A stretch of DNA of 44,812 bases from Bryobacterales bacterium (GTDB taxonomy: Bacteria > Acidobacteriota > Terriglobia > Bryobacterales > Bryobacteraceae), in contig CANFEY010000040.1 of assembly GCA_947446025.1 (NCBI GenBank), forward strand, positions 1 to 44,812. Direction: 5' to 3'. Shown here piece after piece: positions 9,850 through 43,492 of the stretch. Each line of letters opens with the position of its first letter. Position 1 is the first letter of the stretch. The position numbers were made by a program, and so were the translations under genes. The notes beneath the pieces were generated by a model that saw only the letters and a program-made list of their open reading frames with translations, was not told where the DNA came from and searched no databases.

Positions 9850-11268
9850 ATGTCCCTTGAAGATGAAATGTTTGCGCAACGCCGCAGCCGTGTGGCTGAG
9901 GTGGAGGCGCTGGGGTTCCGCGGCTACGGGCAGCGGTTCGATTTCACGCACACTGTAACTCAGGTGTTGGCCGAATATAGCCCGAAGACGGCGGAGGAGT
10001 TGGTGGACCGGCCACGGGTGAAGCTGGCGGGCCGCATCATGACGATCCGGCGCATGGGCAAGGCCGGGTTCATGCACCTGATGCAGGCGGGCGAGCGTTT
10101 GCAAGTCTATGTACGCAAGGACGGGGTTTCCGAGCGCGACTACAAGCTGTACGAGATTCTCGACATGGGCGACATCGTCGGCGTGGAAGGCTACGTCTTC
10201 CGCACTCGCACGGGCGAGTTATCGATTCACGTGGATACGCTGACGTTCTTGTCAAAGATTTTGATGACGCTCCCGGAGAAGTTTCACGGGCTGGAAGATG
10301 TGGAACTCCGGTATCGGCAACGCTACTTGGACTTGATTGCGAACGCGGACTCACAGAAGGTGTTCATGACGCGGGCGAAGATCGTCTCGTCACTGAGGCG
10401 GCAACTGGAAGAGCGCGGCTTCGTCGAAGTGGAGACGCCGATGATGCAGGCGGTGTACGGTGGCGCGACGGCCCGGCCGTTTGTCACGCACCACAACACG
10501 CTCGACATCGACCTCTATATGCGCATCGCGCCGGAACTGTATTTGAAGCGCTTGATCGTAGGCGGGTTGGATCGCGTGTATGAGATTAACCGCAACTTCC
10601 GCAACGAAGGCATCTCGACGCACCACAATCCGGAGTTCACGATGCTGGAGTTTTATCAGGCCTACACCGATTACCGCGGCTTGATGGACCTGACTGTGGA
10701 GATGCTGAAGCGAACGGCGCTGGATGCCACGGGTTCGACGGTGGTCCAGTATCAGGGCCAGGAACTTGATTTCGGCAACGTGCGGCGTATGTCGATGCAA
10801 GAAGCAGTAGGCGACATGACGCTGTTCGGCGACGCGTTGGTGCATGCGTTCGAGGCGAAGGTGGAGCCGATGTTGTTCCAGCCGACCATCATTTACGACT
10901 ATCCCGTGGAAGTGTCGCCGCTCTCTAAGCGCCGCGAAGACGACCCGCGCTTTGTGGAGCGCTTCGAGATCTACGCCGCCGGCATGGAGATCGGCAACGC
11001 GTACACGGAGTTGAACGATCCAGCGGAGCAGTGCAGCCGCTTCCTGATGCAACTGGACCGCAAGGCCGCGGGCGACGAAGAAGCGCACCAGATGGACGAA
11101 GACTATCTGCGAGCCATGAGCTACGGCATGCCCCCCACGGGCGGCGAAGGCATCGGGATCGACCGGCTGACAATGATTCTCACGGATTGCAAGTCGATTC
11201 GCGACGTGATTCTGTTTCCCTTGTTGCGGCCTGAGGGGGGGATTGGGATGGTGGAGAAGTTGCGGTAA
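9850..11268 (+). CDS. lysS: Lysyl-tRNA synthetase, class II
   Basis: A 472-residue cytoplasmic enzyme that charges tRNA-Lys. The OB-fold anticodon-binding domain spans about residues 50-150 ([20 protein letters not shown]). The catalytic domain contains motif 1 ([19 protein letters not shown]), motif 2 ([20 protein letters not shown]) and motif 3 ([14 protein letters not shown]). Length is normal to slightly short. ATG 9850 has no Shine-Dalgarno but a -10-like TATACT seven bases upstream. The stop TAA (11266-11268) overlaps the first bases of the left inverted repeat of the four-helix-bundle element, so that element begins exactly at the gene end. Confidence 0.96.
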
Positions 11269-11311
11269 AGAAGAATTCAGAATTCAGAATTCAGGAGTCA
11301 GAATTCAGAAT
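11267..11311 (+). repeat. Left inverted repeat of the four-helix-bundle cassette
   Basis: Begins AAAGAAGAATTCAG, continues with AATTCAG units, then GAGTCAGAATTCAGAAT. It overlaps the last two bases of the lysS stop codon and contributes the A and T of the ATG at 11310. Confidence 0.9.
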
Positions 11312-11681
11312 GGCTGCTCAACGGGGCGCGAAGACGTTTCAGGATTTGGTGGTGTGGCAGAAGGCGCACCAACTGGTTTTGGGCGTCTACAGATATTCGG
11401 CGGCGTTCCCGAAGTCTGAGGTCTACGGGCTGTCGTCGCAGTTGAGGCGGGCGGCGGTATCGGTTCCGGCCAACATCTCCGAGGGGTTCCGAAGGCGGGG
11501 GAAAGCGGACAAGCCGCGGTTCCTAAACATCGCGCAGGCGTCGCTTGAGGAATGCCGCTACTATCTAATCTTGGCTCAGGATCTGGAATACGGTCCAAGC
11601 ACCGAATTCACGGAGCGACTAGAGGAGGTGAGCCGCATGCTAACGCGCTACACCGACACCATTCTGAATTCTGACTCCTGA
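11310..11681 (+). CDS. Four-helix-bundle protein, S23/IVP family
   Basis: A 123-residue protein. It has the family pattern: FQDLVVWQKAHQLVLGVYRY, then F.K.E.YGLSSQLRRAAVSVPA, NISEGFRR and FLNIAQASLEECRYYLILAQ. Relatives include proteins encoded by 23S rRNA intervening sequences and the Avd accessory proteins of diversity-generating retroelements; the fold is a four-helix bundle that forms pentamers and binds nucleic acid in studied cases. The ATG lies in the left inverted repeat, and the last residues (TILNSDS and stop) are encoded by the right inverted repeat. No reverse transcriptase or variable repeat is nearby, so this is not a DGR. The job at this locus is unknown. Confidence 0.9.
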   Translation: MAAQRGAKTFQDLVVWQKAHQLVLGVYRYSAAFPKSEVYGLSSQLRRAAVSVPANISEGFRRRGKADKPRFLNIAQASLEECRYYLILAQDLEYGPSTEFTERLEEVSRMLTRYTDTILNSDS

Positions 11682-11698
11682 ATTCTGAATTCTTCTTT
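11661..11698 (-). repeat. Right inverted repeat of the four-helix-bundle cassette
   Basis: Reverse complement begins AAAGAAGAATTCAG and ends GAGTCAGAATTCAGAAT, matching the left arm apart from seven missing bases. It encodes the protein's last residues and the stop, and ends three bases before the permease ATG. Confidence 0.9.
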
Positions 11699-11701
11699 CT
11701 T

Positions 11702-12922
11702 ATGTTTGAACTCTTCATCGCCGGCCGCTACCTTCGCGCCAAGCGCAAGCAGGTGATGATTTCTGTCATTTCGGTCATCTCGGTCATCGGGGTGGCGACG
11801 GGGGTCATGGCCCTGGTGATTGCGCTGGCGGTGACCAACGGCTTGCGGAACACCACGCAGCGGACGTTTCTTGCGGCCACTGCGCATGTGATGGTGATGG
11901 AGAAGCAACGTGGGCCGGGGATTGAGGGTTGGCAGGCTGTGGCGGGGCGGCTGGCGAAGTTACCGGGCGTGCAAGCGGCGTCGCCGGCGCTGTATGACGC
12001 TACGCAGATCAGTACTCCGCTGAACAACCTGGGGATGAGCATCAAGGGGCTCTCCTTTGCCCAGGGCGGGTTCCTGCCCGACATTTTGTTGCACTTGAGG
12101 GCCGGGTCGCTGGAGCCAATGCGTGGGAATGACGGGATTCCGGGGATCTTGTTGGGTGTTGAGGCGGCCAAGCAGTTGGGGGCAGAAGTTGGCACGCGGG
12201 TAAACCTGCTGATCATGGATGCGACGCCGCTGGGGCCTCGGCCTACATTTGAGACGGCGCGGGTGGCGGGGCTGTTTGAATCCGGAATGTATAACTACGA
12301 CAACGGGCTCGCGTTCATGGCGCTGGGGGATGTGCAGCGGCTGTGGAAATACCCGGACATCGTCAACAGCATTGAACTGAATCTGAGCGACATCTACGCC
12401 GCGCCGGAGGTGGCCAAGGCGGCGGAGGCGGTGATCGGCAAGGAACTGGCCGCGCAGACCTGGCAGGAGCAGAACCGGTCGATTCTAGATGCGTTCCAAC
12501 TGGAGCGGATGGTCTCGGTGATCACGATCAGCCTGATCCAACTGGTGGCCGCGCTAAACATTCTGACCACGCTGGTCATGATGGTCATGGAGAAGCACCG
12601 GGACATCGCGATCCTGATGGCGATGGGGGCCAAGGTGGGGCAGATCCGGCGGATTTTTGTGTACAAGGGCGCGATCATCGGGGGGATCGGGATTGTGCTC
12701 GGGTTGGCGCTGGGCTATGGGATCAGCTATTTCGCGGACCGCTATCAGTGGCTGCAGTTGGATCAGACGGTGTATTCGCTGAAGTATCTTCCGCTGGAGG
12801 CGAATTGGTCCGACGCGATCTGGATTTCCGCGGCGGCGATGGCGGTGAGCTTGCTGGCGACGATTTACCCGGCCTGGAGCGCGACGAAGATTACTCCGGT
12901 GGAGTCGATGCGGTACGAGTAG
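11702..12922 (+). CDS. LolC/LolE-type ABC transporter permease
   Basis: A 406-residue inner-membrane protein of the FtsX/MacB-like permease family. Residues about 1-50 give the first helix (KRKQVMISVISVISVIGVAT). A periplasmic domain of about 200 residues follows, then three helices near the C-terminus (including LIQLVAALNILTTLVMMVME and GGIGIVLGLALGYGISYFA), ending WSATKITPVESMRYE, the usual end of LolC/E. It probably extracts lipoproteins for transport to the outer membrane. The partner ATPase LolD is not next door. The base stretch before the ATG is the right arm of the cassette and offers no Shine-Dalgarno. It converges with the antitoxin gene with no spacer between stop codons. Confidence 0.9.
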   Translation: MFELFIAGRYLRAKRKQVMISVISVISVIGVATGVMALVIALAVTNGLRNTTQRTFLAATAHVMVMEKQRGPGIEGWQAVAGRLAKLPGVQAASPALYDATQISTPLNNLGMSIKGLSFAQGGFLPDILLHLRAGSLEPMRGNDGIPGILLGVEAAKQLGAEVGTRVNLLIMDATPLGPRPTFETARVAGLFESGMYNYDNGLAFMALGDVQRLWKYPDIVNSIELNLSDIYAAPEVAKAAEAVIGKELAAQTWQEQNRSILDAFQLERMVSVITISLIQLVAALNILTTLVMMVMEKHRDIAILMAMGAKVGQIRRIFVYKGAIIGGIGIVLGLALGYGISYFADRYQWLQLDQTVYSLKYLPLEANWSDAIWISAAAMAVSLLATIYPAWSATKITPVESMRYE

Positions 12923-43415: not shown

Positions 43416-43492
43416 TGGTCGGGGCGAGAGGATTCGAACCTCCGGCCTCCTGGTCCCGAACCAGGCGCTCTACCAGGCTGAGCCACGCCCCG
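43416..43492 (-). tRNA. tRNA-Pro (anticodon CGG)
   Basis: Reads CGGGGCG TG GCTC AGCCTGGTA GAGC G CCTGG TTCGGGA CCAGG on the minus strand, followed by a five-base variable arm, the T arm GGAGG TTCGAAT CCTCT and acceptor strand CGCCCCG, discriminator A and an encoded CCA. All stems pair. The anticodon CGG (43456-43458) decodes CCG. Length 77 with CCA. Confidence 0.97.

Follow-up and report, generated by a model that had tools for sequence, protein, structure and literature searches.

Inverted, unit-specific heptamer arrays around S23-family genes: a candidate minimal mobile unit of bacterial operons

Introduction

How a gene of the S23 family, whose relatives are known from intervening sequences of 23S rRNA, came to lie exactly between two protein genes is the question raised by a locus of a Bryobacterales bacterium (GenBank assembly GCA_947446025.1, contig CANFEY010000040.1). 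The whole stretch analysed, 44,812 nt long, is called the window here. It features an S23 gene enclosed by nearly complementary arms made of tandem heptamers, located between lysS and a permease gene. The answer favoured in the following, with moderate confidence, is that the feature represents a minimal mobile unit of approximately 0.42 kb, consisting of a single S23 gene between inverted short tandem arrays specific to each unit, and carried on host transcripts.

The S23 unit of the window

The whole unit (11267..11698, plus strand; 432 nt) has the outer ends AAAGAAGAATTC and GAATTCTTCTTT. Its key feature is the composition of the arms: the 5′ arm (11267..11311, plus strand; 45 nt) consists of about five tandem heptamers (TCAGAAT, TCAGGAG), and the 3′ arm (11661..11698, plus strand; 38 nt) of heptamers in reverse complement. 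A preliminary description of this DNA, made from the sequence alone, had called the arms nearly perfectly complementary. Indeed, the left arm differs from the reverse complement of the right arm by exactly one additional 7-mer, and a repeat search returned the arms as 43 nt at 93% complementarity. The gene between them (11310..11681, plus strand; 123 aa) draws its start and stop codons from the arms, as had also been described: its ATG marks the inner edge of the left arm, and its TGA (11679-11681) lies within the right arm. Besides the first bases of this ATG, the left arm carries an AGGAG Shine-Dalgarno-like stretch. The limits given earlier for the unit stand as well, since the left arm starts within the lysS TAA (11266-11268), and 3 nt separate the right arm from the permease ATG at 11702. 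In the predicted RNA fold of the unit a long stem closes arm to arm (-195.6 kcal/mol, z -6.9), and none of 100 dinucleotide shuffles reached so low an energy.

The encoded protein is a member of the S23, or 23S_rRNA_IVP, family, with matches to PF05635 (E 4.8e-36, 123.6 bits; cut-off 33.8) and TIGR02436 (7.5e-34, 116.2 bits; cut-off 24). Solved relatives are 2gsc and 2rld, the former with a profile match of 1.5e-36, and the AlphaFold2 model consists of four helices (mean pLDDT 93.8). Only this one S23 gene was found above cut-off in the genome. It is also the sole open reading frame (ORF) of the unit with a match in a Pfam scan, in which a 97-aa antisense ORF had none and no recombinase or transposase was found among the ORFs of the unit, in keeping with the earlier view of an element lacking a recombinase of its own.

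Inverted arms accompany S23 genes

An inverted-arm score of at least 14 was taken as an arm call. S23 genes above cut-off occur patchily, in 176 of 396 genomes; the counts per genome are to be read as "at least", being based in several first searches on the best 11 candidates or fewer. In the window's genome and 60 relatives 31 S23 loci were found, many with inverted arms of ~7-nt units that differ in their 7-mers. G034, a genome of the same family, encodes an S23 protein identical to that of a contig named as Bryobacterales (L031 and L084), which fits a probable placement of the window's genome in this order. From a collection of named genomes the best 80 of 576 S23 loci were analysed. Seven of these were dropped for short flanks, and inverted arms were present at 59 of the remaining 73, compared to 10 of 293 control ORFs of the same DNA (Fisher test, 9e-44). 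The ten control ORFs that passed comprise three S23 genes, three PDDEXK_3 genes, one DUF559 gene, one ORF beside a PDDEXK_3 gene and two ORFs without assigned family. Chance pairing was assessed by mispairing the arms of different loci, which reached the threshold in 153 of 2000 draws, against 59 of 73 loci for own arms. In a larger set of 163 genes (S23 domain of at least ~80 residues, enough flank, duplicates merged) arms were present at 141, which bears out the expectation that such arms are tied to S23 genes. The best repeat period of these 141 armed genes was 7 nt in 94, 8 nt in 16, 9 nt in 11, 10 nt in 6 and 6 nt in 2, with 12 not clearly periodic, and the 5′ arm was purine-rich in 111.

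S23 relatives also occur on 29 viral contigs of IMG/VR (L381-L409). After removal of five apparent duplicates, 20 of 24 such loci had inverted arms, although three of those kept (L386-L388) also share identical arms. A search of GenBank phage records with the window protein gave no S23 match at E 1e-5.

Arms of this kind are not confined to S23 genes. Genes for PDDEXK_3 nucleases (GxxExxY; PF13366) had inverted short-repeat arms in 19 of 24 loci tested (of 30, six weak or partial matches having been dropped), with units of ~8-10 nt such as CACAGAGG. The PF13366 loci are L351-L367 and L373-L379, and further PDDEXK_3 genes with arms are located at L088:2536-2922, L141:7260-7649 and L114:607-966. 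This suggests that the arm architecture, rather than the S23 protein, may define the class. Strong inverted flanks, of palindromic type, were also noted at a DUF559 (PF04480) gene (L128:582-956).

Each unit carries its own repeat

The two arms of one unit matched each other in 37 of 39 cases, whereas the left arm of one unit and the right arm of another in the same genome matched in 2 of 178. These 39 S23 loci, of 40 regions, come from seven genomes that have more than one S23 gene, except for a single locus of an eighth genome. Within genome G181, for example, the repeats of different units include AGTGGTC, GGTTTTA, CGGTTAT, AGTCGTC, AGTTTC, AGTTGTT and AGCTCTC. A single arm sequence common to S23 genes was therefore rejected, and the 38-base arm of the window, once proposed as a probe for other S23 genes, could not have worked as one for the same reason. 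The arms as a common intergenic repeat unrelated to S23 were likewise rejected as sole explanation, on the grounds of the control ORFs and of the comparison of own with other arms.

Units with more similar proteins also have more similar arms, as measured by 4-mers (Mantel r 0.37, 0 of 1000 permutations). The correlation is retained between phyla alone (r 0.33, 0 of 1000 permutations), although a comparison of nearest neighbours across phyla gave only a weak signal of arm similarity (mean percentile 0.59); both used 64 loci and 17 phylum labels taken from record titles. S23 gene and arms thus appear to travel together.

Units are mostly sense to their operons

S23 units mostly lie in sense in operons, often at or near stop/start junctions. 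Relative to both neighbours, the S23 gene was in sense at 49 loci, antisense at 4 and mixed at 12 (49 versus 4, p 7e-11). This count covers the 65 of the 80 loci that have ORF neighbours within 800 nt, neighbours being ORFs of at least 100 aa rather than curated genes. Among annotated plasmid loci, 10 of 13 were in sense to both neighbours, corresponding to 6 of 9 independent sites.

The site of the window unit is not within a 23S rRNA gene. Its neighbours are lysS for lysyl-tRNA synthetase (9850..11268, plus strand; PF00152, 9.7e-89) upstream and a gene for a LolC/FtsX-type permease (11702..12922, plus strand; PF02687, 2.3e-21, and PF12704, 3.1e-14) downstream. An exact search of the S23 loci, with flanks that are often short, for ten motifs of 23S rRNA found none. 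The only match of the window in an Rfam scan at gathering thresholds was a tRNA gene on the minus strand (43419-43492).

Filled and empty sites on plasmids

Presence and absence of units at orthologous sites, as read from aligned records, is clearest in a family of cyanobacterial plasmids, at a place called site B. Among the best 12 of 48 records, this site is filled in 3 and empty in 6 at ~97% identity. In the sequences read (2 filled, 2 empty), the empty site AAAAAGTAATTAACAAAT corresponds to AAAAAGTAAT-[423 nt]-GTAATTAACAAAT in filled form or, in brief, GTAATTAAC to GTAAT-[423 nt]-GTAATTAAC. The filled form is longer by 428 nt, of which 5 bp are a direct repeat (GTAAT), and the insertion is without tail or truncation. 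The right outer end of the site B unit is nearly identical to that of the window unit. At site A, on a plasmid of Picosynechococcus PCC 7003 (L327), an S23 unit separates cmr2 from cmr3 in a type III-B CRISPR operon; the site is empty in PCC 7002 at 88% identity. Further sites were read as 3 filled and 5 empty (site C), 2 filled and 3 empty (site D) and 1 filled and 2 empty (site F). At sites G and H the units are antisense to their neighbours, and the empty relatives have diverged. None of the empty plasmid sites read contains a heptamer array. The earlier idea that a discrete S23 unit inserts between protein genes is thus supported by filled and empty plasmid sites.

Homologous units also appear at unrelated places. 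The units of sites C and B match over 419 nt (77.8%), and those of sites C and F over 416 nt (81.0%). This homology stops at the unit ends, and the plasmid places themselves are unrelated. On one plasmid a second, different S23 unit with other arms is located one gene beyond the site C unit. Moreover, in the Nostoc N6 plasmid pNPM1 the S23 gene of site C is itself split by a gene-less arm pair of 182 nt with TCAGAAT and TCAGGAG repeats (L333, ~1414-1595), which is absent from the otherwise aligned gene of strain ATCC 53789; gene-less pairs therefore insert as well. A target-site duplication is clear at site B (GTAAT), lacking at the 182-nt insertion, and ambiguous or lacking elsewhere.

The lysS-lolC junction in the genus

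The site of the window unit was compared across 23 genomes of the genus, in which G000 denotes the window's genome. A full-length S23 gene is present between lysS and lolC in G000, G015, G019 and G007, and a truncated one in G001 and G020. In G004 a scar retains the 3′ arm, with the repeat of another S23 unit ~20 kb away. In nine other genomes lysS and the permease gene adjoin without a unit, with gaps of 3 to 92 nt; these include the closest relative, G014 (lysS 91.5% identical), in which the lysS TAA directly abuts the permease ATG. The empty site proposed earlier as a check was thus found both here and on plasmids. In the remaining seven genomes lysS was not found before the permease gene in the stretch examined. 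A single ancestral insertion at this junction was considered and not retained, as the S23 tree does not decide on it.

Left and right arms of the orthologous units score 35.5 in G000, 34.0 in G015, 21.0 in G019, 21.0 in G001, 18.0 in G020 and 10.5 in G007. The score within a unit exceeds all values between genomes only in G000 and G015 (2 of 6 genomes), the between-genome values being inflated by some S23 coding sequence within the windows scored. Mirror evolution of both arms in orthologous units, which would be clear in these two genomes only, was not retained. It had been foreseen that relatives might keep the gene with diverged, non-complementary flanks. This applies weakly to G007; in G000 and G015 the two arms still match strongly, though their composition differs. 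By eye, lysS in G015, G019 and G020 (L018, L019, L153) appears to run through the left arm and to stop at AATGA over the S23 start, which would couple translation of the two genes in these genomes.

Persistence at the same place in several species of the genus is what would be expected if the unit were immobile now, an old operon gene with hairpin flanks that regulate translation or process mRNA, and with selection, or else template-switch repair of inverted repeats, keeping the arms matched. The Shine-Dalgarno-like sequence and start codon held by the arms, and their potential to pair in the predicted stem, fit this explanation. It is nevertheless quite improbable in view of the clean presence and absence at 97% identity at site B, the gene-less insertion into an S23 gene, the homologous units at unrelated plasmid places, and the patchy occurrence of S23 genes among the 396 genomes, with relatives of the window protein scattered across many phyla in the S23 tree.

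Gene-less heptamer arrays

Arrays of the same heptamers as in the window unit occur at ~8 other places in its genome (at most 3 mismatches, weaker matches aside). Of the four placed relative to genes, those on contigs C28, C33 and C45 lie in sense between a stop codon and the next start, and the C2 array lies inside an ORF. Five of the eight arrays end in TCAGAATG. A gene that follows an array with this ending (C45:2148-2182 and C33:40550-40591 of G000; L252 and L229) seems to obtain its ribosome-binding site from the array, and perhaps its start codon as well. At the C45 site, G014 has a plain Shine-Dalgarno sequence and ATG and is 29 nt shorter, and G007 has an array. At the C2 site G014 has unrelated sequence and G007 again an array, and at the C28 site neither genome has one. 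The C33, C55 and C97 sites align on one side only, and C50 gave no alignment.

Across the genus, matches to arrays of the window type number 25 in G000, 24 in G004, 53 in G015, 19 in G020, 28 in G007, 5 in G001 and 6 in G019, all genomes with a unit or its remnant. The other 16 genomes have 6, 0, 1, 2, 6, 1, 0, 6, 0, 0, 2, 0, 107, 0, 0 and 0 (median 0.5). Such matches overlap, one array giving several, and include the units' own arms. The p value for the higher numbers in the first group is 0.0013 as counted, 0.010 with the units' own arms removed (at most 3 assumed for G007), and 0.033 with G004, whose unit carries a different repeat, moved to the other group in addition. In G011, the genome with 107 matches, long TCAGRAG arrays are located at contig ends (C41:1-133, C24:3-30).

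In 400 kb of the S23-rich genome G324, the arms of the five units read from it have 4, 20, 0, 0 and 2 arrays resembling them, and the arms of 31 units from other genomes have 12 altogether, three units with arms shorter than 21 nt having been left out. The largest array family is AGTACTC, often with a fixed order of 7-mers and also in inverted pairs with short spacers; solo AGTACTC arrays retain the unit order of the arm of a resident unit. In some genomes, array families share the repeat of a resident unit. The preliminary description had treated a common repeat untied to S23 genes as fatal to its proposal. Gene-less arrays do exist in the window's genome, as feared, but they are of the repeat type of its resident unit.

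Heptameric repeats are over-represented in bacterial genomes according to the available part of PMC4692102, and of the 68 period-7 arrays in the 400 kb of G324 only 4 are found within 70 nt of the two S23 genes present there. Both findings are compatible with simple sequence repeats made by slippage, in or beside which S23 genes merely land. We regard this as very improbable, since the arms are inverted and matched and so not a product of slippage alone, the empty plasmid sites are free of arrays, and the solo AGTACTC arrays keep the 7-mer order of a resident unit's arm.

Proposed mode of movement

In the mechanism that we propose, the unit would insert as DNA, often at or near the stop/start junctions of operons and mostly in sense. 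It is assumed to lack a promoter of its own and would therefore be carried on the host transcript, in which the arms would form a long hairpin, as in rRNA intervening sequences. RNase III cuts the stem of rRNA intervening sequences. Similar cutting of the mRNA stem would leave lysS and the permease gene on mRNAs of their own. Most likely, the S23 protein binds the arms of its unit and recruits an enzyme that cuts and joins in trans. Arms without a gene, whether single arrays or inverted pairs, would be remnants and non-autonomous copies.

A serious candidate for the helper is a Y1 transposase (IS200/IS605, RAYT-type) acting in trans on the hairpin arms, in which case the unit would be REPIN-like with a passenger gene. 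Genes matching PF01797 were found in 15 of the 16 genomes searched. Y1 elements are expected to insert without target duplication, as observed for the 182-nt insertion. The gene-less inverted array pairs with short spacers resemble REPINs as portrayed in the accessible part of PMC3116915. We nonetheless consider this explanation unlikely: no PF01797 match was found in G007 (95% complete), which has both the unit and 28 array matches, a 5-bp repeat marks the ends at site B, the arms differ from one S23 unit to the next, and no Y1 gene was found within the unit.

Movement as RNA, copied back by a reverse transcriptase in the manner of the Avd relative in diversity-generating retroelements, would agree with the sense orientation of most units. 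The S23 protein also has weak matches to DivGenRetAVD (1.4e-5, 25.4 bits, versus an Avd cut-off of 80) and bAvd, both below cut-off. In the window's genome an Avd-like gene (C27:69-362) directly precedes a reverse transcriptase gene (C27:604-1242; L006), possibly as part of a diversity-generating retroelement. On the other side, no PF00078 was found in 7 of the 16 genomes searched, including the S23-rich genomes G324, G209, G241 and G357 with at least 5 units each, and the insertion at site B lacks the tail or truncation of a reverse-transcribed copy. A reverse transcriptase as a requirement is not supported, even if absence of PF00078 does not formally exclude an RNA step, and the suggestion that the unit moves "perhaps as RNA" has become improbable.

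Several observations weigh against a mobile unit of the proposed kind. Arms were below threshold at 22 of the 163 S23 genes. No genome was found to contain nearly identical units at two places, and mobility is deduced from comparison of sequences rather than from movement observed in real time. A clean short duplication is present at site B only: the repeated TTCT at site C may belong to the arm, at sites A, D and F and at the site of the window unit a duplication is either obscured by divergence or lacking, and it is lacking at the gene-less insertion of 182 nt. The S23 tree shows no single origin for the units at lysS-lolC (3 changes), and the TAAATG junction of G014 could reflect precise loss instead of the original state; as the unit also occurs in the more distant G007, gain in G000 is not distinguished from precise loss in G014. 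As to the arrays, G001 has no match beyond its unit's own arms and G019 only two, whereas no S23 gene was found in G011 with its 107. The G324 S23 gene with AGTACTC arms, the most widely dispersed repeat, contains an in-frame stop, and AGTACTC matches number 80 in G256 and 31 in G181, where none of the units read has such arms.

Relation to known systems

The proposed link to the intervening sequences of 23S rRNA proved apt. According to the part of PMC4990558 available, the intervening sequence of Coxiella burnetii has 428 nt (first predicted as 444 nt) and contains an S23p ORF in sense with tandem heptamers before its ATG. The units described here share with it the protein family, the complementary ends closing a predicted long stem, the sense ORF, the heptamers before the ATG and the size (413, 423 and 432 nt in three S23 units). 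They differ in their protein-operon host, in repeats specific to each unit and in the related gene-less arrays dispersed in some genomes. In the best reading, the 23S rRNA intervening sequences are a known special case of S23 units.

Closest in logic is the REPIN/RAYT system, again as far as the available part of PMC3116915 describes it, with a gene flanked by its own short repeats that are also dispersed singly or as inverted pairs in some genomes. Here the Y1 transposase is replaced by an S23 four-helix-bundle gene (PF05635), and the repeat is a tandem array of ~7-mers. Unlike in insertion sequences or miniature inverted-repeat transposable elements, the arms are not conserved between units (2 of 178 match), and no transposase was found in the unit. 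Avd of diversity-generating retroelements is a distant relative of the S23 protein (25.4 bits against the cut-off of 80). Unlike in such retroelements, no reverse transcriptase lies beside the window unit, the only PF00078 match of G000 being on another contig; template and variable repeats were not searched for.

S23-unit arrays also resemble two orphan heptamers, as described in the accessible parts of the respective papers: TAACTGA, tandem, mostly intergenic and forward-oriented just before start codons (PMC4679880), and GGGAATC, tandem, mostly intergenic and often in inverted pairs (PMC4692102). Terms for S23 and four-helix proteins occur 0 times in the main texts of these two papers. Literature searches, with most subscription papers outside reach, found no publication linking S23 genes to heptamer-array units.

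Implications

Nearly as likely as not, S23 and PDDEXK_3 units form two branches of a single, hitherto unrecognised class of bacterial mobile units, each consisting of a small gene and inverted arms of unit-specific short tandem repeats recognised by the encoded protein. Under this tentative proposal, gene-less arms would be a main source of the heptanucleotide repeats that have long been noted in bacterial genomes without explanation, and could supply ribosome-binding sites and start codons, and 23S rRNA intervening sequences would be units that landed in rRNA. The available parts of PMC4990558, PMC4679880 and PMC4692102 settle neither where S23 intervening sequences and heptanucleotide repeats come from nor what they do, and the architecture described here suggests a link between the two. 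At 0.42 kb, with empty sites known and a single candidate protein, the unit lends itself directly to testing. Should the S23 protein recognise its own repeat, the pairing of protein and repeat would have diversified unit by unit within single genomes; this would amount to a novel form of selfish DNA, from which many mutually orthogonal nucleic-acid binders could be drawn.

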